From contig JAGWYO010000014.1 in NCBI GenBank assembly GCA_018969355.1, positions 1-39,703 on the forward strand: 39,703 nucleotides of DNA. The letters are read 5' to 3'. The translations under genes and the position numbers were made by a program. Shown here piece by piece: positions 27,862 to 38,216 of this stretch (position 1 is its first letter; each line of letters begins with the position of its first letter). The notes under the pieces are model-generated. The model was given only the letters and a program-made list of their open reading frames with translations. It was not told the origin of the DNA and ran no database searches. The DNA is from Actinomycetales bacterium. GTDB lineage: Bacteria; Actinomycetota; Actinomycetes; Nanopelagicales; Nanopelagicaceae.

Positions 27862-28749
27862 TTATCCCTTAGTTGCGCCGAGAGTTAAGCCTGAAACAAA
27901 CTGCTTACGTAGTACAAGGAACAAGATGATCGTTGGCGCAGCAACAATGCTGGCACCTGCAGCAAGTAAATTGAAATCTGTGATGTATTGGCCTTGTAGC
28001 TGGCGCAGAGCAGAAGTCACTGGACGCTTGGAATCTTCAGACATCAAAATCAGCGCCCAGAAGAAGTCGTTATAAATCCAGCAACTCATTAACACGCCAA
28101 GGGCTGCTAGAGGTGGGCGAAGCAATGGCAACAAAACGTTCCAATAATGCCTAAAGACTGAACAGCCATCGAGAATTGCTGACTCTGAAATCTCCTTTGG
28201 AACAGTCTTCATATATGAAGAGAGAACGAAGGTAGCAAAACCAACTTGGAATGCAACATGGATAAGTATGATGCCAAAATAGTTGTTATAGAGCAACGAA
28301 CGGTTTCCGAAAAGATCACCAATTTTGATATATAGCCAGAAAACTGGAATATATGTTGCAATCGTTGGCAACATATTGCCAGCAGTAAAGAAAAGTAGAA
28401 GTGTGAGATTAAATCTAAATGAGTAGCGTGATACAACGAAAGCTATGAGTGAGCCTAAGAATAAGATCAAAATAACGCTAGGTACCATCACATACAGAGT
28501 ATTCAAGAAGTATTTCGTTAGGCCCATAACTCGAAAAGCTTGGAAATAGTTATCTAGGTTTAAATGACGTGGCCAAGAAAAAACACCATAGGAAATAATG
28601 TCGTTATAGGGACGAAGTGATGTCCAAAGTGTCCAAAGAATTGGAAAAATCCAAACAAAAGCAAAGAAACCAATAATGGCAGAGATGAAGTTGTCTTTGA
28701 CCTTTTGTTTATTCTTATACTCTTTATTTTGGACGATTGTCACACTCAC
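27862..28749 (-). CDS. Carbohydrate ABC transporter permease (MalG-type, CUT1)
   Basis: This is an inner-membrane permease with about six hydrophobic segments; 295 residues. The cytoplasmic EAA-like loop reads EISESAILDGCSVFRHYWNVLLPLLRPPLAAL, which contacts an ATPase. An RPYNDIISYGVF segment after the first helix is typical of MalG/UgpE-like partners. It overlaps the upstream permease by 4 bases (ATGA at 28746-28749). No transporter ATPase is encoded in the window, so it would use a shared MsmK-like one (inference). The substrate cannot be read from sequence. Confidence 0.9.
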   Translation of the reverse strand: MSVTIVQNKEYKNKQKVKDNFISAIIGFFAFVWIFPILWTLWTSLRPYNDIISYGVFSWPRHLNLDNYFQAFRVMGLTKYFLNTLYVMVPSVILILFLGSLIAFVVSRYSFRFNLTLLLFFTAGNMLPTIATYIPVFWLYIKIGDLFGNRSLLYNNYFGIILIHVAFQVGFATFVLSSYMKTVPKEISESAILDGCSVFRHYWNVLLPLLRPPLAALGVLMSCWIYNDFFWALILMSEDSKRPVTSALRQLQGQYITDFNLLAAGASIVAAPTIILFLVLRKQFVSGLTLGATKG

Positions 28750-29657
28750 TGCAGATCCTCCTTAAAGACATTGCGCAGATAAATAAGGATAGGAACAACG
28801 CAGAGCACAAGGGCTATAACTGAATAAGCCGCACCCTTCATTGAAATTCCCTGTCCCGCGAAGTTCTGGAATGCCAAAATATTGAGCAGAGGCCAGGCCG
28901 TTGAAGTGCCATAAATAATGTAGACAAGGTCAAAAGCACGCAAAGAATCGATAATTGTTATCACCAAAATAATGACATTGACTGGTCGCATGGTAGGAAA
29001 AATTATTTTCCTAAAGGTCTGCCACTCTGTAGCGCCATCGATTGCAGATGCTTCCCGAAGTGATGAATCAAAGGCCTTTAAGCCAGCTAAATAAAGCAAC
29101 ATGATGTAGCCGATATGGCGCCAAGAGGCCACAGCCATAATCACATAACTATTGATGCTGTAGTTACCCCAAATAGAAACAGCGTTTCCAATATCTCTAC
29201 CCATCACACCTTGCACAAAGCCACCCGGTTGAAGCATAAAGTTCCAAATAATTCCAATAATAGCTAAGGATAAAACTACAGGCATATAGAAAATAGTTTC
29301 ATAAATCTGGTGACCCTTAATTTTGCGATCAAATTGATAAGCCAACAGAATTCCAAGTGGTGTTGCAATGAATGTAAACCACAGTAACCAGACGACGTTG
29401 TTCTTTAGTGCATCATAGAAAACTGGTGAACCTAAAAAAATGTTTTTGTAGTTAGCTAGTCCAGCCCATTTAATATCACTAACATTCACGCCATTCCAGT
29501 AGGTAAAAGAAAGAACGACTGTAATGAGTGTAGGAAACCATAAGAAAATTATTTGCAATAAAGTTGGAATACCTACGAAAGCACTGAGCGTAAACCGATC
29601 ATTGCGGGAAAGGGAGCGGCGGCTGCGAACAATTTTGTTCACAGCCGCCGTTTTCAT
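28746..29657 (-). CDS. Carbohydrate ABC transporter permease (MalF-type, CUT1)
   Basis: This permease has 303 residues and about six membrane spans. The EAA-like loop is REASAIDGATEWQTFRKIIFPTMRPV, and YWNGVNVSDIKWAGLANYKNIFL is the periplasmic loop common in the family. The ATG at 29655-29657 has AGGG about 7 bases upstream. Codons 3-13 form an unusually strong hairpin (see separate entry), which may limit its translation relative to the binding protein. It pairs with the downstream MalG-type permease. Confidence 0.9.
   Translation of the reverse strand: MKTAAVNKIVRSRRSLSRNDRFTLSAFVGIPTLLQIIFLWFPTLITVVLSFTYWNGVNVSDIKWAGLANYKNIFLGSPVFYDALKNNVVWLLWFTFIATPLGILLAYQFDRKIKGHQIYETIFYMPVVLSLAIIGIIWNFMLQPGGFVQGVMGRDIGNAVSIWGNYSINSYVIMAVASWRHIGYIMLLYLAGLKAFDSSLREASAIDGATEWQTFRKIIFPTMRPVNVIILVITIIDSLRAFDLVYIIYGTSTAWPLLNILAFQNFAGQGISMKGAAYSVIALVLCVVPILIYLRNVFKEDLQ
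29617..29650 (-). promoter_or_regulatory. Strong hairpin just after the start codon of the MalF-type permease
   Basis: Arms CGGCGGCTG (29617-29625) and CAGCCGCCG (29642-29650) pair over 9 bp; after one mismatch GAAC / GTTC adds 4 bp around an AATTTT loop. It spans codons 3 to 13, starting 4 bases inside the gene, and lies 43 bases after the binding-protein stop. It resembles intercistronic hairpins that keep binding-protein mRNA abundant and permease expression low. No T-tract, so not a terminator. Confidence 0.6.
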
Positions 29658-29693
29658 TTCTTAACCCTAGTCTAATCCGTTAGTTTTAACGAA

Positions 29694-30998
29694 TTAAAGT
29701 GCAGGCAATGCATCCCATTGTGCTTGAGTGCTTTCAAGAATCTTTGTGAGATCTTTTGGATTCTTCAGGAAACTCTGAATCGCTGGACCAACAACTGGAC
29801 CAGCAAAATCACCGCGAGTATCGCGGTCTAGGAAGAAGCCGATGTTCTTAGCTGCGCCAAGTACAGCAAGCTTTTGCTTGTTGAATGCGTCGTAGCCAGA
29901 AGTATCGAAATCACTTGAGATGTAAATGCTTGTATCTCCAGCAGCAACAGCTGCATCAATACCTTCCTTAGATCCCCAGAACTGTGCAAGGTCTTTTCCA
30001 CCCTCGACGTTCTTGCCATTTGCGGCAACTGAAATACCGTCAAGTGGTGCATCGATAGAGTCAACACCATGCTCTGGGTTGATTTCTGGGAATGGAACAA
30101 TCCATAGATCGTCATAGTCTTCTTGTGACTTGGCTTTAAAGTCATTAGCAAACCATGAACCCATCATCATCGCTCCGCACTTCTTCTGTAGTAGAAGATC
30201 GCGCATTCCATCCCATGAAATATCAAGAACGTTCTTGTTCATGTAAGGAATCAACTGACCCATGTGTGTAAATACATCTACAACCTTGGCATCAGTCCAC
30301 TTCTCTTTACCATTGAGCAAGTCATAGTGGAACTGGTATCCATTAAGACGCATATTGAGAATATCGAAGGTTCCCATTGCTTCCCAGCCGCCCTTGTCGC
30401 CAAGTGCGTAACCAACTAGACCCTTCTTTTTTGTTGCTTCACAAAGTTTGATGAGGTCATCCCATGTTGCGATGTTTTCTGGGTTAAGTCCTAGCTCAGT
30501 CATTGTTGACTTTCGGTAGTGAAGTCCCCATGGGTAGTACGTAGTAGGAATGATGTACTGCTTACCATCTGCAGGATTTGTTGCACCTTGGATTGCAGCA
30601 GCTGAAAGTGAACTTCCTAGCGCCTTTACCTGATCTGAAACATCTGCTAGTAGCCCAGAATCAGCACGTGCATTGGTGCGCCAACCGGCCATCCAGCCAA
30701 ATGCATCATCAGGTGTTCCCTGCATGATTTGTACGAAGTTATTTTGGAAGTCATCTGAGTTAACAGCTTGTGAAATAACTTTATTGCCAGTCTTCTTTGT
30801 GTAAGCATCGTTGACTGCGATATTAATCTTTGCACCAGCATCACTGAGATTTCCACGAATTGTGTAGTGAACATCTCCGGTGACTTTCTTCTTTCCGCAA
30901 CCTGCAAGAAGAGATCCACCAGCAACAAGTCCAGCACCACCGATTGCAGCACCTTTAAGTACTGAACGACGGGAAATGCCATTGTTTACTTCTGACAT
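29694..30998 (-). CDS. Extracellular solute-binding protein (CUT1 sugar type), Tat lipoprotein
   Basis: This is a family 1-like substrate-binding protein for the adjacent permeases, anchored outside the cell. The ATG at 30996-30998 has AAAGGA 7 bases upstream and gives 434 residues; the frame extends 20 codons further but without support. A twin-arginine signal (ISRRSVLKG at residues 8-16) and a lipobox LLAGC with Cys34 predict Tat export and lipid anchoring. The mature part shows the typical pattern PTTYYPWGLHYRKSTMTELGLNPENIATWDDLIKLCEATKKKGLVG. Ligand unknown; sulfoquinovose or its glycosides are one speculative option, given the sulfonate genes upstream. Confidence 0.88.
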   Translation of the reverse strand: MSEVNNGISRRSVLKGAAIGGAGLVAGGSLLAGCGKKKVTGDVHYTIRGNLSDAGAKINIAVNDAYTKKTGNKVISQAVNSDDFQNNFVQIMQGTPDDAFGWMAGWRTNARADSGLLADVSDQVKALGSSLSAAAIQGATNPADGKQYIIPTTYYPWGLHYRKSTMTELGLNPENIATWDDLIKLCEATKKKGLVGYALGDKGGWEAMGTFDILNMRLNGYQFHYDLLNGKEKWTDAKVVDVFTHMGQLIPYMNKNVLDISWDGMRDLLLQKKCGAMMMGSWFANDFKAKSQEDYDDLWIVPFPEINPEHGVDSIDAPLDGISVAANGKNVEGGKDLAQFWGSKEGIDAAVAAGDTSIYISSDFDTSGYDAFNKQKLAVLGAAKNIGFFLDRDTRGDFAGPVVGPAIQSFLKNPKDLTKILESTQAQWDALPAL

Positions 30999-31130
30999 TG
31001 TTTTCCTTTTCTCTAGAGTCGAGCCTTTCGAAAGGTCATCAGGAATTGAAGGGGCCAAAGCCTGGTAACAGCCTCAACCTAGGGCGGATTGCTACTCAGA
31101 GGTAGGGAAATTGGATAACGAATCGGTTAC

Positions 31131-31157: not shown

Positions 31158-31328
31158 CTACTTTTTGCCACCAAAAAGGCGAGAGAACAGGCCGGGCTCT
31201 TGTGGGTCATTGTCATGGCCCTGGCAGCGATCTTTTTTAGCCACCCCAGCCAAAGCCTGCTCAATATGTTGGCCACAGCCTGACCAAGTTGGCTTGTGGC
31301 ACTTACGGCAAGTAGTTCTACTGCACAA
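31158..31328 (-). CDS. Small cysteine-rich conserved protein (56 aa), TTG start
   Basis: The frame reads MCSRTTCRKCHKPTWSGCGQ, then HIEQALAGVAKKDRCQGHDN, then DPQEPGLFSRLFGGKK. It starts at TTG 31326-31328, preceded by a purine-rich AGGAGAGGA site with about 7 bases spacing, and follows the CoA-disulfide reductase by 15 bases. Cys2, Cys7, Cys10, Cys18 and Cys35 suggest metal or persulfide binding. It shares TWSGCGQHIEQALAGVA with the 38-residue protein that opens the same operon. No function is known to me. It may be a small cofactor or sensor of the sulfane-sulfur system. Confidence 0.7.
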   Translation of the reverse strand: MCSRTTCRKCHKPTWSGCGQHIEQALAGVAKKDRCQGHDNDPQEPGLFSRLFGGKK

Positions 31329-31343
31329 AGCTGTATTCCTCTC

Positions 31344-32987
31344 CTAGTTGGTAACAAGTAATGAGGCTGCTGCTGGTGAATTGATCCATGTCAAATATCC
31401 ACCATCAAGATTTACGGGATTAAATCCGAGTTCTTTGAGAAGCATGGCAGCTGTGTGACCACGTTGGCCCACTTGGCAGTTCACCAATAGTTTCTTATTA
31501 GTGATTTCAGATTGGCGTTCACGGATTTCATCAACTGGAATGTTGATAGCACCAGGAATCATTCCTTTGCCACATTCGCTAACGCTACGAACATCTATGA
31601 GGGTGTAACCCTTATCCATGTATTCATGGATTTCATCCCACTGCGCAACTTGAGTTAGACCAGAAACGATATTCTCGGCAACATAGCCCAACATGTTTAC
31701 TGGATCTTTTGCTGAGCTAAATGGCGGTGCATAGGCAAGCTCTAAATCTGCAAGTTCTGGAGCCGTAATACCACCACGTATTGCAGTTGCAATAACATCA
31801 ATTCGTTTATCTACACCTTCAACTCCAACTCCCTGGGCGCCTAAGATCTCTCCGGTAGTTGGCTCAAATATAAGTTTCAAACTCATTTGTTTTGCATCAG
31901 GATAATAACCAGCATGTGAATTTGGATGAGTATGAATTGATTGATAGGTACGGCCAGCAGCTTTAAGTCGCTTTTCATTCCAACCGGTTGTGGCAATCAT
32001 CAAATCAAAGACCTTGACTATTGCTGTACCAATTGTCTGTACAGGGCGAATTGATCGTCCAGCAATATGGTCTGCAACTACGCGACCATGGCGATTTGCT
32101 AAATTGGCTAATGGGACAAGTGTTGCACTGCCATCTAAAGCATCAATCTTTTCAGCGGCATCACCAACGGCATAGATATCTGGATTACTTGTGCGATTGA
32201 AATCATCAACTGAAATTCCATTTCTAGTGCCAATGGTGAGGCCAGCTGCCTTAGCTAAGGAAATCTCTGGGCGCACACCAATCGCCAAAATAACGATCTC
32301 GGCCGACACAGTGTCACCGTTAGAGAGCTCGACACTGTTTGCGCCAATGTTTAAAACACTTGCTCCAAGGTAGAGATTAACACCATGTTTAATCATCTCT
32401 GCAGATACTAAAGATGCAAGCTCTGAATCTAGAGGCATCAGTACTTGATCAGTTGCTTCAACCAAAGATGTTTGAATTCCTTTGTGAATCAGGTTTTCAG
32501 CGATTTCAACACCAATGAATCCGCCACCAATAACAACAGCACTCTTTGGGTTTGCACTCACACGGGCAGCAATCTTTTCAACATCCTCAACTGTTCGAAG
32601 CGTCAATGCTCTTTCAATTCCCGATAGCGGTGGAACAACTGGAGAGGCACCAGGGCTCAGTATTAACTTGTCGTAATCAATTTCATGAGTTTCGTGACTA
32701 TCTAGATTCTTAATGGTGACTGTCTTCTTATTTGGATCAATACTAAGAACTTCTGTGTTCACACGAACATCTAGGCGGAAACGTGCATGCAGTGATTCAG
32801 GGGTCTGCAACAACAACGAACTTTCCTGCTCAATTACTCCACCCACGTAATATGGCAAGCCACAGTTGGCATAGGAAACATGCCCACTTTTTTCAAGAAC
32901 GATGATCTCGGCATCTGCATCTAAGCGGCGCAAACGAGTTGCTGCAGACATACCGCCAGCAACCCCGCCAATTATGACTATGCGCAT
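31344..32987 (-). CDS. CoA-disulfide reductase / rhodanese fusion (CoADR-Rhd)
   Basis: This flavoprotein of the pyridine nucleotide-disulfide oxidoreductase family reduces CoA disulfide or CoA persulfide with NAD(P)H. The 547 residues include GGVAGGMSAATRLRRLD (FAD, residues 7-23), the active-site Cys42 in YANCGLPYY, VVIGGGFIGVEIAENL for NAD(P)H, and AVGDAAE. A C-terminal rhodanese domain (about 450-545) has its own Cys504 in VNCQVGQRGH. Homologues act in persulfide handling with CstR-regulated genes. The start overlaps the rhodanese stop (TGATG). Persulfide reductase activity is inferred from the fused rhodanese. Confidence 0.9.
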   Translation of the reverse strand: MRIVIIGGVAGGMSAATRLRRLDADAEIIVLEKSGHVSYANCGLPYYVGGVIEQESSLLLQTPESLHARFRLDVRVNTEVLSIDPNKKTVTIKNLDSHETHEIDYDKLILSPGASPVVPPLSGIERALTLRTVEDVEKIAARVSANPKSAVVIGGGFIGVEIAENLIHKGIQTSLVEATDQVLMPLDSELASLVSAEMIKHGVNLYLGASVLNIGANSVELSNGDTVSAEIVILAIGVRPEISLAKAAGLTIGTRNGISVDDFNRTSNPDIYAVGDAAEKIDALDGSATLVPLANLANRHGRVVADHIAGRSIRPVQTIGTAIVKVFDLMIATTGWNEKRLKAAGRTYQSIHTHPNSHAGYYPDAKQMSLKLIFEPTTGEILGAQGVGVEGVDKRIDVIATAIRGGITAPELADLELAYAPPFSSAKDPVNMLGYVAENIVSGLTQVAQWDEIHEYMDKGYTLIDVRSVSECGKGMIPGAINIPVDEIRERQSEITNKKLLVNCQVGQRGHTAAMLLKELGFNPVNLDGGYLTWINSPAAASLLVTN

Positions 32988-33376
32988 CAGTTTGTCACCA
33001 ATGCCATCCCGTTAGCTAGCCAGTCATTAACTCCGCTACTTAAGTTAAATAACTTAGTGAAGCCAAAATGATGCATAGTCTCAACCGCAACCCCTGATCT
33101 GCGGCCACTTCGGCAATAAACGGCATATGTAGCTGACTTATCGAGTTTGGTGATTTCACTTTCAAAATGCGACGTTTCCACATCAATATTTATGGCACCT
33201 TGAATATGCCCTGACATGTATTCACCAGGCGTTCTAACATCAAGTACAACTACATGAGGTTCGGCTATTTTCTTGGCGAAGGCCATTGTGTCCAGATTTT
33301 TTGCCGATGAGGTCGTGCTGCACCCGGCAAGAAGTAAAAGAGAGGCAAGAAATGCGAATATTTTTTTCATCATCAT
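32987..33376 (-). CDS. Rhodanese-domain lipoprotein
   Basis: The 129-residue protein has a lipoprotein signal (KKIFAFLASLLLLAGC, Cys19) and a single rhodanese domain with catalytic Cys88 in YCRSGRRSG and the conserved DVRTPGEYMSGHIQGAINIDVE. It should sit outside the membrane and transfer sulfane sulfur. The start ATG overlaps the cstR-like stop as ATGA; a run of three ATG codons makes the exact start ambiguous by up to two codons. A surface rhodanese together with a cytosolic CoA-persulfide reductase suggests handling of thiosulfate or polysulfide arriving from outside (inference). Confidence 0.9.
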   Translation of the reverse strand: MMMKKIFAFLASLLLLAGCSTTSSAKNLDTMAFAKKIAEPHVVVLDVRTPGEYMSGHIQGAINIDVETSHFESEITKLDKSATYAVYCRSGRRSGVAVETMHHFGFTKLFNLSSGVNDWLANGMALVTN

Positions 33377-33660
33377 GCCAGACTTAAGAAGAGCTTTTGA
33401 AGTTGTGCAGTTACCGCATCGGAATTGGATTTGCCATCAACAATGCATTCTTTGAGACTGGCAGAGATAAGGGTGAAGGCAGCTGTATTTACTGCTTTTG
33501 AAACTGCAGACATTTGTGTGACGATCTCTTCGCAGTTACGACCATCTTCAAGCATGCGAGAAATAGCACCTAACTGTCCCTGAGCTCTTTTGATTCGCTT
33601 TGAAATTGCGATTATCTGCTCTTCATCAGAGAGCACATGAGCAATCTTTTGAACACTCAT
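33373..33660 (-). CDS. cstR: CsoR-family, CstR-like (per)sulfide-sensing repressor
   Basis: The all-alpha DUF156 protein has the family core IKRAQGQLGAISRMLEDGRNCEEIVTQMSAVSKAVN. The ATG at 33658-33660 overlaps the stop of the small upstream protein as ATGA; an alternative two codons upstream exists. In the 95-residue form Cys43 and Cys72 are 29 apart, as in CsoR, but the position of the copper-ligand His (four residues before the second Cys) is Ser68. That Cys-Cys without His pattern marks persulfide sensors such as CstR rather than copper sensors. Neighbouring rhodanese and CoADR genes agree. Function assigned by residue pattern and context. Confidence 0.8.
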   Translation of the reverse strand: MSVQKIAHVLSDEEQIIAISKRIKRAQGQLGAISRMLEDGRNCEEIVTQMSAVSKAVNTAAFTLISASLKECIVDGKSNSDAVTAQLQKLFLSLA

Positions 33661-33773
33661 CGACATTTACAACAATCTTGCTCGGCAACGCCTGCTAAGG
33701 CTTGTTCTATATGTTGGCCACACCCTGACCATGTGATTTTCTTACAAACGGAGCACGTGACTCGTGAACACAT
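33657..33773 (-). CDS. Small cysteine-rich conserved protein (38 aa)
   Basis: The frame reads MCSRVTCSVCKKITWSGCGQ then HIEQALAGVAEQDCCKCR, from an ATG at 33771-33773 with GGGAG 8 bases upstream. Cys2, Cys7, Cys10, Cys18, Cys34, Cys35 and Cys37 make it a very cysteine-rich peptide. It is the first gene after the CstR-type promoter and overlaps the cstR-like start. Its 17-residue TWSGCGQHIEQALAGVA block is identical to that in the 56-residue protein that closes the operon. Unknown function; a metal- or sulfur-binding role is plausible. Confidence 0.65.
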   Translation of the reverse strand: MCSRVTCSVCKKITWSGCGQHIEQALAGVAEQDCCKCR

Positions 33774-33806
33774 CTTCTTTTCTCCCTAAATAACCGTTAA
33801 GGGAGA

Positions 33807-33837
33807 TAAAGTAGCATACCCTAGGGGGTATAGTCAA
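33807..33837 (-). promoter_or_regulatory. Promoter with CsoR/CstR-type operator
   Basis: On the minus strand TTGACT (33832-33837) is a good -35; TACTTT or CTACTT 17-18 bases on is a fair -10. Between them is the dyad ATACCC-N4-GGGTAT (33816-33831), which fits the G-tract inverted repeats bound by CsoR and CstR. A repressor on this site would block RNA polymerase. The -35 overlaps the stop codon of the upstream exporter gene. Confidence 0.7.
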
Positions 33838-34823
33838 ATTCCCATAATCCGCACAGCAACCAACGCCACCCCAGCAACAATCACCCAAGCGAGTAAACCC
33901 ATAACCATTGGGCGTGCACCAATCGCTCGAATTGCCTTCCACCGAACGCCAGATCCCAATGCAACTAATCCAGCACCAAGTAAGAGCTTGCTAGTGAGCA
34001 CGACATCATCGTGAATTCGTGCAGGAATATCAAAAACATTTTGGATGATGGCAACTGCCATGAAACCTAAAACAAAAAATGGAATGAGCGGAACTTTGGC
34101 AGAGTTTTCAGCCCTCTGACCTTGGGCCTGTAGATACTTGCGATGGCGAAGAGAAAGAATCAAAACAATGGGTGCTAGCAGACACACACGTGAGAGTTTT
34201 ATAACAACTGCAGATTTAACTGCATCATCACTCCAGACAGATGCCGTTGCTATAACTTGACCAACATCGTGGACTGCAGCTCCAGCCCAGGCACCAAATG
34301 TTTGATCACTTAGCCCCATTAAGTGGCCCAGAAATGGCAAGACAAAAATAGAGAGCGTTCCACACAAAGAGATCAGCCCAATTGCATAAGAAGTTTCTTC
34401 TTCGGTTGCGCGAGTTTGCGGACGAATTGCCGCAACTGCAGTTGCGCCACAAACACCGAAACCGACTCCAATAAGCAGACCTAGTTCTCCACTCATCTTA
34501 AATAGTTTTGAAAGGCCTAAGATTCCAAAGATTGTGAAACTAACTACCAAAATTACTGTGATCACACCTTTCACGCCAATGGCTTTGAGTGAAATAACAC
34601 TTACTTGGGCCCCCAGCAATGCAACTCCAATGCGCATTAACTTCTTGCTCGAAAATGAAGTTCCGGCTGCGGCAACTGCAGGCCAGGATGCAAAGTTTGC
34701 AATCAAGAATCCAAAGGCAACACAAAGCGCAAGCGGGCTGATTGCTGGTTGAAAATTGTGAATTTGAAATGCCACAGCAACAACGGCTGCAATTAAACCA
34801 AGTCCCGGAAGCGTTTTCGTCAT
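33834..34823 (-). CDS. suyZ: YeiH/UPF0324 family putative sulfate/sulfite exporter (SuyZ-like)
   Basis: The 329-residue membrane protein has about nine to ten hydrophobic segments and the family motifs GVALLGAQVSVISLKAIG, GFGVCGATAVAAIRPQTRATEEETSYAI and GAWAGAAVHDVGQVIATASVWSDDA, as in YeiH/COG2855 proteins. Members linked to sulfonate degradation are named SuyZ or TauZ and are thought to export sulfite or sulfate. It begins immediately after the comC-like stop (TAAATG) and ends the sulfolactate operon, so export of the sulfite released by SuyAB is the likely job (inference). Confidence 0.8.
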   Translation of the reverse strand: MTKTLPGLGLIAAVVAVAFQIHNFQPAISPLALCVAFGFLIANFASWPAVAAAGTSFSSKKLMRIGVALLGAQVSVISLKAIGVKGVITVILVVSFTIFGILGLSKLFKMSGELGLLIGVGFGVCGATAVAAIRPQTRATEEETSYAIGLISLCGTLSIFVLPFLGHLMGLSDQTFGAWAGAAVHDVGQVIATASVWSDDAVKSAVVIKLSRVCLLAPIVLILSLRHRKYLQAQGQRAENSAKVPLIPFFVLGFMAVAIIQNVFDIPARIHDDVVLTSKLLLGAGLVALGSGVRWKAIRAIGARPMVMGLLAWVIVAGVALVAVRIMGI

Positions 34824-35831
34824 TTAGATTCCGAGCTTCGTGGACCAAGTATTCAACTGCTCTGCCACTTGATCAGTGATTGTTATTTCATCCCCATTAT
34901 TGAGTTTTTCTGGATTTATACGATTAGAACCTGGAAGGCGGCCCCCAGAGCTATTTACTTCCTGGGCAAACTCCTTAGCTCTATCGTTGCTTCCATCAAC
35001 AGATAGCTTTGAGGCATCGATTGCAATGACAAAATGTGAAATCTCTTGAGGCAAAGCATCTTGGGTAGCTGCAAACATGTCAGGAATGTTTTTAGCCAAG
35101 GTTGGTCCAATTAACATTCCAGTCAGAGACTCAACTAGAACAGCAATTGCATACCCTTTTACACCGCCTAATGGTGCAAGCATTCCAGCTAAGGCTTCCT
35201 TTGCATTTGTGGTTGGCACACCATCTTTTGTGAAAGCCCAACCAGGTTCAAGTTCTGCACCTGCTTGAGCTTTTGCTTGAATCTTTCCACGGGCAACTGC
35301 ACTCGTTGCTAGATCAATAACAGTCGGTGGATTTGTTGGGATACCTGCTGCAATGGGAGAAGTTGATAGCAATGGTTGATTGCCACCCCATGGTGGCATA
35401 ACAGCTGGACCAGTACTAAATGCAATACCAACTAATCCACGATCAATCATAGGCCAGACATAGATACCTAATGCACCGCAGTGATTAGAACGTCCAACGC
35501 CAACGGCAGCTATTCCATTAACCATTGCGCGCTCAGATGCAATTTCAGAGGCTTTGTGTAACTGCCAATGGCCCAACCCATCATCACCATCAAAAACAAC
35601 CAAACTTGGCAAATCTGTAACAACCTTTAACTCCGCATTTGGATTAATTCCACCTGCTTGCAAACGAGAGAGGTAAAATGGAAGGCGCATTAATCCATGA
35701 CTTCCAATTCCCCATCGATCACTTGCAACAATACAGCGAGCAGTTGTTGCCGCTTCTTGTGTGGGAACACCTGCTGCTTTCAATAGCGAGGTTGCTGTAG
35801 CAATTGCAGATCCGACATTTAGCGTAGGCAT
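34824..35831 (-). CDS. comC: Ldh2/malate-lactate dehydrogenase family, ComC-like (R)-sulfolactate dehydrogenase
   Basis: The 335-residue NAD(P)-dependent 2-hydroxyacid dehydrogenase has GSHGLMRLPFYLSRL (His45 of the family), VGVGRSNHCGALGIYVWPM and AAGIPTNPPTVIDLATSAVARGKIQ. The type includes malate, ureidoglycolate and sulfolactate dehydrogenases, so sequence alone does not fix the substrate. Coupling with an SlcC-type enzyme and SuyAB is the arrangement used to invert sulfolactate stereochemistry: one enzyme oxidises (S)-sulfolactate, the other reduces sulfopyruvate to the (R) form. Its ATG overlaps the preceding stop as TAATG. Confidence 0.72.
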   Translation of the reverse strand: MPTLNVGSAIATATSLLKAAGVPTQEAATTARCIVASDRWGIGSHGLMRLPFYLSRLQAGGINPNAELKVVTDLPSLVVFDGDDGLGHWQLHKASEIASERAMVNGIAAVGVGRSNHCGALGIYVWPMIDRGLVGIAFSTGPAVMPPWGGNQPLLSTSPIAAGIPTNPPTVIDLATSAVARGKIQAKAQAGAELEPGWAFTKDGVPTTNAKEALAGMLAPLGGVKGYAIAVLVESLTGMLIGPTLAKNIPDMFAATQDALPQEISHFVIAIDASKLSVDGSNDRAKEFAQEVNSSGGRLPGSNRINPEKLNNGDEITITDQVAEQLNTWSTKLGI

Positions 35832-36769
35832 TAGTTGCTACTTTCCTTTAACGCACCAACGGCATGAGTGGCTGGTTTGGAACTAAGAACCAACTCGATA
35901 TTTGATGCAAGAATTTCATTAATTCGCAGTTGGCTTTGGCTCGTGATTCCAGCAACGTGGGGCGTAAGGATGAGGTTAGGGATACCTTCCATTTCACCTC
36001 TACTTGGTGGCTCTTGGGCTCGAACATCAAGTGCTGCCCCAGCAATAGTTTTGGCTTTTAAGGCAGAAATCAGATCTGCTTCATTAATAACTTCTCCGCG
36101 GCCAACGTTTACCAAAATTGCGTCGGGCTTCATTAACGCAAGTGTTGCTGCATTAATTACACCGTTGGTTTCTGGAGTCGATGGCATATGAATACTTACT
36201 ACATCACTGCGCCCTAAAACATCTTCAAAAGTTGTCAGTTCTATTCCTGACAAATTCATTGCATATGGGTCAAACCCAATAACGTTGCAGTTAAAACCTT
36301 GTATTAGCTTGGCCGTTGCAACTCCCGTGGCACCGCATCCCAGCAATCCCCATGTCAGATGTGAGAGTTCACGGCCAGGGGTTCGCACCCATCCACCATC
36401 ACGCGTTGCACCATCATGACCAGGAATATTGCGAAGTAAGGCTAAGGCTAAACCAAGAGTTAGCTCACCAACGCTAATCGCATTTGCACCTAACCCTGCA
36501 ACAACAACAACGCCGGCAGCATCGGCTGCTTTGATATCAATATTGTCTAGTCCAACTCCAGCGCGTGCAATAACTCGAAGTTTAGGGGCCGAAGCAATGA
36601 CATCGGCTGTGACTTTGGTGCGATTTCTTACAACAAGAGCCATTACATCTTTAAGAGAAGCCTTGAGTTTTTCAGCATCACTCCACAAATCATCATTTCG
36701 GATAATGGGAAAACTCCCTTCCAGTTTGTGGAAAGGAGTTCCCCATACATCTTCAGAGATGAGAATCAT
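35831..36769 (-). CDS. slcC: D-isomer 2-hydroxyacid dehydrogenase, SlcC-like (S)-sulfolactate dehydrogenase
   Basis: This 312-residue NAD-dependent dehydrogenase has a GLLGCGATGVATAKLI nucleotide motif and the catalytic triad Arg224 (NVGRGEVI), Glu253 (RAQEPP) and His271 (TPHVAG), so it should be active. The family also includes phosphoglycerate and glyoxylate dehydrogenases. Placement between suyB and a ComC-like gene points to (S)-sulfolactate oxidation to sulfopyruvate, as described for slcC in sulfolactate degraders. It overlaps both neighbours as TAATG. Confidence 0.75.
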   Translation of the reverse strand: MILISEDVWGTPFHKLEGSFPIIRNDDLWSDAEKLKASLKDVMALVVRNRTKVTADVIASAPKLRVIARAGVGLDNIDIKAADAAGVVVVAGLGANAISVGELTLGLALALLRNIPGHDGATRDGGWVRTPGRELSHLTWGLLGCGATGVATAKLIQGFNCNVIGFDPYAMNLSGIELTTFEDVLGRSDVVSIHMPSTPETNGVINAATLALMKPDAILVNVGRGEVINEADLISALKAKTIAGAALDVRAQEPPSRGEMEGIPNLILTPHVAGITSQSQLRINEILASNIELVLSSKPATHAVGALKESSN

Positions 36770-37935
36770 TATGCAGAGATATACAACTTCGTAAAAGTGA
36801 ACTCACGGTGACCCATAACTTCAGCCTTACAGAGGCGACCATTAACAGTGTCATAAATGACATCCATCATCATGTCGCCAGCTTTTGTCAGATCGTATTC
36901 ATAACGAAGTAATCCAGAAACATCTAGATCGATGTGCTCAGTCATTGACTTTGCAGTCTTGATGTTTGCAGTCAGCTTCAAAACCGGAACAATCGGATTG
37001 CCGATTACGTTTCCTTGTCCCGTTGGGAACAAGTGAATAACTGCCCCGCCAGCCGCCATCAGGGTTACGCACTCTGCTGCAGCTGATGATGAATCCATAA
37101 AGTACAAGCCAGGCTTTGATGCACTTGGCATTTCTGCAGGCTTGAGAACACCCACAACTGGTACAGAGCCAGTCTTGGCAATATTTCCAAGTGCCTTCTC
37201 TTCAATAGTTGTTAAGCCACCAGCAATATTTCCTTGAGTTGGCTGTGAACCAAGTAGGTTTGCACCAGTTGCTTCAATAACCTTGATGTAGTTGTCATAT
37301 GTCAACTGGAACAAGTCACGGGTAGCAGCATCAATGCAACGCTCTGCAATGAGGTGTTCTCCACCAGTTAGCTCTGATGTTTCACCAAAGAAAACAGTTC
37401 CGCCTGCATCAACCCAGCGATCAACAGCTTGAGATGTCGTTGGGCAAGAACCTAGACCAGATGTTGTATCAGACTCTCCGCACTTAATTGACATAATCAT
37501 GTCGCCCATTTCAGCTTCTGTGCGAACAAGACCAGATGCATCTTGTAAGAACATCGCTGCAACACGGCTAGCTTCTTGAATTACTTGTAGATCGCCCTTG
37601 CCTTCAATTGAAAAAGCTGCAACTGGCTTACCAGTTTTTGCAATTCCATCAGCAACTCTTTGAGTCCACTTTGGTTCGATTCCAATGACAACTACTGCTG
37701 CAACGTTTGCGTTAACACCAGTACCGATAAGTGTGTCAAAAGTAAGTTGTAGATCTTCACCAAACTGCAAGCGCCCGAAAGCGTGAGGCAGAGCTAGTGT
37801 GCCAGGAATAACTTTTGCAACGGCTTCTGCTGCTGCATTAGAAAGGTCATCAAGAGGCAAAATAATGACGTGATTGCGGATACCCATTGCGCCGTTTTCG
37901 CGGCGGTATCCCATTAAGCGCGGCTTGCTTCCCAT
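36769..37935 (-). CDS. suyB: (R)-sulfolactate sulfo-lyase subunit beta (UxaA family)
   Basis: This large subunit of the UxaA/altronate dehydratase family is inferred to cleave (R)-sulfolactate to pyruvate and sulfite with SuyA. The 388-residue product begins MGSKPRLMGYRRENGAMGIRNHVIILPLDDLSNA. It has CGESDTTSGLGSCPTTSQAVDRW near residue 155, a Cys-rich family motif, and MAAGGAVIHLFPTGQGNVIGNPIVPVLKLTAN toward the C-terminus. The ATG at 37933-37935 has GAGGAG 6 bases upstream and overlaps suyA by 22 bases; an ATG 7 codons on would make a TAATG junction but is less supported. Altronate dehydratase is the alternative, but the split SAF subunit and dehydrogenase pair favour SuyB. Confidence 0.78.
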   Translation of the reverse strand: MGSKPRLMGYRRENGAMGIRNHVIILPLDDLSNAAAEAVAKVIPGTLALPHAFGRLQFGEDLQLTFDTLIGTGVNANVAAVVVIGIEPKWTQRVADGIAKTGKPVAAFSIEGKGDLQVIQEASRVAAMFLQDASGLVRTEAEMGDMIMSIKCGESDTTSGLGSCPTTSQAVDRWVDAGGTVFFGETSELTGGEHLIAERCIDAATRDLFQLTYDNYIKVIEATGANLLGSQPTQGNIAGGLTTIEEKALGNIAKTGSVPVVGVLKPAEMPSASKPGLYFMDSSSAAAECVTLMAAGGAVIHLFPTGQGNVIGNPIVPVLKLTANIKTAKSMTEHIDLDVSGLLRYEYDLTKAGDMMMDVIYDTVNGRLCKAEVMGHREFTFTKLYISA

Positions 37936-38216
37936 CGATAACTCCTCATATTGTGTGTGTGAATGTAATCGCCCTTTTTAATGGCAGCTGATGCAAGTCC
38001 GACCTTGATGCCGTACTTAATAATTGAGTCGCCCTCAGCAAGATCTGTGAGCGCAAATTTGTGTCCGAGAGGAATCGCGTGGTTTAAAACAGCGGTGCTC
38101 TCCGTTCCTTCTTTTACCGAACGCCCTTGCAGGGTTCCAGGTTGCAGATCTGTCATCGCAACAGCAACGTTGTCGCCATCATGATGGAGCAGGAACTGCG
38201 GTGGTGTTATCGCCAT
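37914..38216 (-). CDS. suyA: (R)-sulfolactate sulfo-lyase subunit alpha (SAF domain)
   Basis: The 100-residue small subunit is a SAF/UxaA-type domain: MAITPPQFLLHHDGDNVAVAMTDLQPGT, NHAIPLGHKFALTDLAEGDSIIKYGIKVGLASAAIKKGDYIHTHNMRS. The HKFAL and GDxIxKYG elements are those of the N-terminal part of altronate/sulfolactate lyases, here as a separate gene as in suyAB systems. It is the first gene of a five-gene operon. The promoter region is shared with the divergent oxidoreductase and has a GntR-like box about 35 bases upstream. Confidence 0.78.
   Translation of the reverse strand: MAITPPQFLLHHDGDNVAVAMTDLQPGTLQGRSVKEGTESTAVLNHAIPLGHKFALTDLAEGDSIIKYGIKVGLASAAIKKGDYIHTHNMRSYRWEASRA

Follow-up and report, generated by a model that had tools for sequence, protein, structure and literature searches.

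The stretch of DNA considered here (the 'window') comprises the 39,703 nucleotides of contig JAGWYO010000014.1, from a freshwater Actinomycetales bacterium (GenBank assembly GCA_018969355.1); at positions 31158–33837, on the minus strand, lie five genes that an original prediction, made from the sequence alone, had described as a CstR-like operon resembling the cst systems of persulfide defence. Reading in the direction of transcription, we see a small cysteine-rich protein of 38 amino acids (sm38; MCSRVTCSVCKKITWSGCGQHIEQALAGVAEQDCCKCR; 33657–33773); a CstR-like repressor (33373–33666); a single-domain rhodanese with the lipobox LLLLAGC (32987–33376; Pfam Rhodanese, 1.7e-18; LPAM_1, 2.3e-4); a 547 amino acid CoA-disulfide/CoA-persulfide reductase fused to a rhodanese (CoADR-rhodanese; 31344–32987); and a second small cysteine-rich protein, of 56 amino acids and with a TTG start (sm56; 31158–31328). 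Successive genes from sm38 through CoADR-rhodanese have short overlaps, of a single base up to a few, which suggests one transcript for the four; sm56 begins 15 bases after the last of them. Open reading frames and family matches confirm the gene order, coordinates and protein sizes as originally given; left out of that account were an operator, an adjacent YeiH-like gene, a SuyAB/SlcC/ComC-like operon and the fact that the small genes recur widely.

The repressor belongs to the CsoR/DUF156 fold family (PF02583, 1.4e-20, above the cut-off), and the 1.40-Mb genome yielded no other PF02583 protein. Its likely start is Met3, at position 33660, the ATG of which overlaps the stop codon of sm38 as ATGA; most close relatives also align from residue 3. 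Counting from this methionine, and aligning with PDB entries 7mq1, 4m1p and 4adz, we see Cys43 and Cys72 at the x and z positions of CsoR, in a Cys-x28-Cys spacing, with Ser68 at the position where copper sensors have a His ligand, just as had been predicted. The closest solved structure is 7mq1/7mq3 (E = 4e-10), with CsoR structures next; it shares the identical Cys-x28-Cys spacing and a non-His residue at the ligand position, albeit Asn in place of Ser, and 7mq1, whilst deposited under the name CsoR, is an entry we take to be pneumococcal CstR. The best NCBIfam match is RicR, a weak one at 45.7 bits against a cut-off of 175, which would favour reading the locus as a copper operon controlled by a diverged CsoR; set against this are the Ser that replaces the His ligand and an operon that holds no copper gene.

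Located 43 bp upstream of sm38 is the palindrome ATACCCTAGGGGGTAT (33816–33831; assigned to neither strand), an exact match to the ATACC-N6-GGTAT sulfane-sulfur site published for Streptomyces (PMC7533328) and the only intergenic copy of that site found in the genome; a second copy, on contig C18, was discounted as it lies inside an open reading frame, and the contig holding copA carries none. On the minus strand a -35-like hexamer, TTGACT, is followed directly by the operator and then by an extended -10-like element, TGCTACTTT; both elements were read by eye, an automatic promoter scan returning nothing above its threshold at the operator. Placed between the two, the operator would therefore cover the promoter spacer, and the same TTGAC-palindrome layout is also found in several relatives. 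With this site, the repressor's own operon has the G/C-tract palindromic operator expected for a CstR.

The enzymes point in the same direction. The best matches to CoADR-rhodanese are the Bacillus CoADR-RHD (3icr; 6e-166) and the CoA-persulfide reductase of Enterococcus faecalis (8a56; 1e-162), and both of its catalytic cysteines, in SYANCGLPYY and in the rhodanese motif VNCQVGQRG, align with those of the two structures. Its score against TIGR03385 (CoA-disulfide reductase) is 463.8 bits and does not reach the curated equivalog cut-off of 578.8; we therefore file the protein as CoADR/CoAPR-like (CoAPR, CoA-persulfide reductase), rather than as a certified CoADR. Searching the bacterium's own genome for SQR and for persulfide dioxygenase (PDO) gave weak or partial matches only, none of them close to the SQR or full-length PDO of relatives, so that the reductive branch stands alone here. 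In close relatives (L040, L065–L068) an SQR-like gene, with 3hyv as its nearest PDB entry, lies between sm38 and cstR; the window is without it.

The two small proteins are indeed paralogues, placed first and last in the operon, with 72% identity over 36 residues, and are the sole two copies in the genome. Searched with a profile made from the pair, the gathered loci yield 129 members; the family is present in 122 of 297 genomes of the class and in 12 of 119 genomes spread over the phylum, with loci also in Acidobacteria and others, sampling outside Actinomycetota being poor. The conservation alignment of 103 members, all required to start with MC, shows no variation at C2, C7, G17, C18, G19, H21 and C35 and almost none at C10, K12, T14, W15 and L26; the only apparent non-MC member, L058, also begins with MC if its start is placed two codons further upstream. 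The proteins have five to seven Cys and a His in ~37 residues. These 103 members belong to no Pfam or NCBIfam family (stray matches for one or two members, E 0.002–0.007); the best E-value against PDB chains is 0.056, and literature searches returned nothing relevant for the motif strings of the family and nothing for a small Cys-rich protein accompanying CstR. AlphaFold2 models a beta-hairpin plus short helix (mean predicted local distance difference test score, pLDDT, of 84; 83.9 for sm38), in which C7-x2-C10 lies on the hairpin and C18-x2-H21 where the helix starts; sequence and model agree on this arrangement, and the small proteins are accordingly predicted to be zinc-finger-like thiolate proteins.

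For the small proteins, values of 0.23–0.24 for the ratio of non-synonymous to synonymous polymorphism (pN/pS) among relatives point to purifying selection. As the first gene of the operon, overlapping the cstR start as ATGA, sm38 could be taken for a mere Cys-rich leader peptide, serving translational coupling or attenuation; we rejected this most improbable of the alternatives on the pN/pS of 0.23, and it also sits poorly with the conservation of residues other than Cys (K12, T14, W15, G17, G19, H21 and L26) and with family members that stand last in operons or alone.

In the wider set of loci, a CsoR-family gene is present in 43 of 106, and all 43 of the encoded proteins keep the Cys-x28-Cys spacing but have Ser (15), Ala (18), Gly (8) or Lys (2) in place of the His ligand. 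The control, 30 His-type CsoR loci of the class examined over 1.5 kb on each side, has neither a small gene nor the palindrome in any of the 30; and in small-gene genomes, among the matches listed, at least 5 of 17 low-scoring PF02583 genes have a small gene no more than 6 kb away vs none of 29 high-scoring ones. The small genes are linked exclusively to non-His CsoR-family repressors. The core palindrome TACC-N6-GGTA stands within 120 bp upstream of 42 of the 123 distinct small genes, typically with a gap of 35–60 bp; 80 such sites occur in total in the 886 kb of loci and, by our own arithmetic from the 38 sites elsewhere, ~0.6 small genes would be expected to have one upstream.

The same 106 loci contain cstR (43), CoADR (29), rhodanese (24), YeiH (17), PDO (16), TauE (10) and SQR (5); in the window and relatives alike the repressor is linked to sulfurtransferase, persulfide-converting or sulfite-export genes. 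In Microbacterium the order runs from a divergent cstR through the operator, a small gene of 61 amino acids, another of 38/39, PDO and TauE to rhodanese; on the Curtobacterium plasmid pC1a we see CstR, a small gene for which no feature is listed, rhodanese, DsrE and TauE; the Arthrobacter plasmid pA58H2 likewise has a CstR-type arrangement with a small gene, and in Rhodococcus pREL1 and Cnuibacter, too, the small gene has the palindrome in front of it. The plasmid feature tables, which are incomplete, hold no feature under most small-gene matches. Across these genomes, the small proteins are more widespread, and accompany such loci more regularly, than had first been suggested.

Several observations weigh against assigning the small proteins to persulfide chemistry. 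Sulfur-related genes were found in just 58 of the 106 loci; neither cstR nor operator is present at L041, L045–L054, L069, L092, L098, L103, L114 and others; and a small gene is retained by streamlined members of the genus whose complete genomes contain no PF02583 gene (G061, G078, G093, G118, G015, G157 and G166), the family therefore having a role beyond CstR and a persulfide-only reading being limited to that extent. At three loci without a CsoR-family gene nearby, operator and small gene are followed by a heavy-metal P-type ATPase (L099:854–2788 and L101:5202–7127, cadmium-type by NCBIfam; L131:5461–7371, by sequence likeness), an arrangement that hints at metal. The bacterium's own genome encodes a CopA-type copper ATPase, though no second CsoR; and, on the AlphaFold2 models of the small proteins, neither Foldseek nor VIA-align yields a significant structural match.

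Three other readings draw on this evidence. CopA in a genome with no other PF02583 gene could be reconciled with the copper operon introduced above, but the absence of the operator from the copA contig, the missing His in 43 of 43 co-located homologues and the 30 of 30 His-type loci lacking both small gene and operator led us to reject it as very unlikely; in all the sequence tests run, the assignment of the repressor as CstR-like, rather than as a copper CsoR, is supported. That the small proteins instead buffer metal, as thiolate proteins rebinding zinc or copper freed by persulfide or sulfite stress, would suit their density of Cys and His and the operator-small gene-ATPase (Cd/Zn type) order at L099 and L101; we consider it unlikely, since the neighbours identified are mostly sulfur rather than metal genes and no small gene accompanies any of the 30 copper-CsoR loci. 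Somewhat less doubtful is that they are zinc-finger regulators or adaptors that bind protein or nucleic acid (for example helpers or anti-repressors of CstR, or partners in a general thiol-stress system), rather than carriers of sulfur: the predicted hairpin and helix with C-x2-C/C-x2-H, weak Foldseek matches that are largely to zinc fingers, a match of one member to the NSD Cys-His-rich zinc domain (E = 0.005) and the persistence of copies without CstR would all fit, set against the lack of any significant family or fold match and the strong link of the regulon to sulfur enzymes. An action on sulfane sulfur, tentative as it is, ranks first amongst these possible roles, followed by the zinc-finger adaptor and then the metal buffer.

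Small genes without CstR also stand beside FUSC, MFS, MoeA or other genes (L041, L045–L054, L092, L098, L103, L125 and L129), and would constitute an autonomous branch of the family. In a tree of the window's relatives, sm38 clusters with short forms encoded by first genes and sm56 with long forms ending ..FSRLFG.., a grouping that needs 3 label changes vs 17.9 in shuffles, on few columns and with weak forks, many of them unresolved. A recent local duplication was rejected, each protein grouping with its own kind in relatives within those same limits; as sm38 and sm56 group apart, the pair probably predates this genome. L037, L071 and L079, relatives that lack the operon, have the long form directly after YeiH, and the window therefore looks like this arrangement with the CstR block set between YeiH and sm56. 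The C-terminal extension of sm56, which ends GLFSRLFGGKK, belongs to a ..GFFSRLFGxK.. tail (31158–31217) that is kept in long forms across phyla and predicted to be a short helix; docking to a membrane or to a partner is possible.

Directly upstream of the operon, and on the same strand, five genes overlap or abut: SuyA-like (37914–38216) and SuyB-like (36769–37935), both with the GD_AH domain, SlcC-like (35831–36769; 2-Hacid_dh), ComC-like (34824–35831; Ldh_2) and a YeiH/UPF0324 membrane protein (33834–34823; PF03601, 6.7e-71). The best NCBIfam match of the ComC-like protein is L-sulfolactate dehydrogenase (200 bits, below the cut-off of 500), and its second PDB match is the L-sulfolactate dehydrogenase 2x06. 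In Paracoccus wurundjeri SuyA, SuyB, SlcC and ComC are encoded consecutively (MDP0926257–260; PMC12421959), the same four kinds of gene in the same order; the adjacent exporter is YeiH-like here, whereas P. wurundjeri has TauE elsewhere in its genome. We regard the first four genes (34824–38216) as a putative operon for sulfolactate degradation in a small-genome actinobacterium, with a lyase that would release sulfite, and YeiH, which scores 175.6 bits against TIGR00698 (cut-off 232.6) and adjoins a small gene in many relatives, as a putative sulfite/sulfate exporter. Genes of the Suy/Slc/Com run are kept upstream of YeiH in L033, L035, L037, L038, L066, L071 and L079. On the far side of the operon, at 27862–31000, a sugar-type ABC transporter (a binding protein and two permeases) could serve for the uptake of a sulfonated substrate; in relatives it is conserved beside the small gene or YeiH.

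The five genes very probably form an actinobacterial CstR-type persulfide regulon, and the locus as a whole is best explained, with fair probability, as such an operon together with small proteins that handle sulfane sulfur. From the genes and their arrangement we infer an effector, a release from DNA and enzyme substrates as follows. The repressor, bound to the palindrome between -35 and -10 ahead of sm38, would hold down expression of the five genes; reactive sulfur species, which probably arise with sulfide and with sulfite from the SuyAB-like lyase operon, would oxidise Cys43 and Cys72 to a poly-sulfide link and so free the DNA. The secreted rhodanese lipoprotein would act on sulfane sulfur outside the membrane, CoADR-rhodanese would convert the persulfide of CoA (or of another low-molecular-weight thiol) to thiol and H2S, and YeiH may export sulfite. 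The small proteins, with Cys7-x2-Cys10, Cys18-x2-His21 and the invariant Cys2 and Cys35, might pick up sulfane sulfur, or carry or buffer it as it moves between these enzymes. More speculative, and in our estimation rather unlikely, is that they form a new class of dedicated sulfane-sulfur 'miniproteins', each a zinc-finger-like scaffold with further invariant thiols that would receive sulfur from SQR or rhodaneses, hand it on to persulfide dioxygenase or CoA-persulfide reductase and, in the absence of CstR, serve the metabolism of sulfonates or sulfite.

Most work on how CstR senses persulfides has dealt with Firmicutes and Streptomyces. Should the small proteins prove core to the regulon throughout Micrococcales, Actinomycetales and freshwater lineages, an entire step in the way bacteria handle sulfane sulfur would have been missed, because genes of fewer than 60 codons often go unannotated; the operator-first-gene arrangement makes their role directly testable, and persulfide defence would, through the putative sulfolactate operon next to it, be connected with the use of sulfonates in abundant freshwater bacteria.

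Of the systems already described, the cst-like operon of E. faecalis encodes CstR, RhdA, RhdB and CoAPR, with the rhodaneses and CoAPR under the control of CstR (PMC9405070); the enzyme part of the window is therefore an operon of known kind, sharing with it a CstR-type repressor, a rhodanese and a CoA-persulfide reductase with C-terminal rhodanese, and this gene content, together with the likeness to 7mq1, the operator and the relatives of the reductase, supports the original comparison with cst. The window differs in its two small Cys-rich proteins, its lipoprotein rhodanese, its actinobacterial host and the sulfolactate-type operon beside it. The sulfane-sulfur-responsive ScCsoR circuit of Streptomyces coelicolor (SCO0620), with PDO, rhodanese and a sulfite transporter, shares the ATACC-N6-GGTAT operator, a CsoR-like repressor and genes for sulfur clearance (PMC7533328); its four genes include no small Cys protein, however, and it clears sulfur oxidatively, through PDO, where the window would do so reductively, through CoAPR. 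The type of operon is already known, then; what is new is the small family as a regular member of the CstR regulon.

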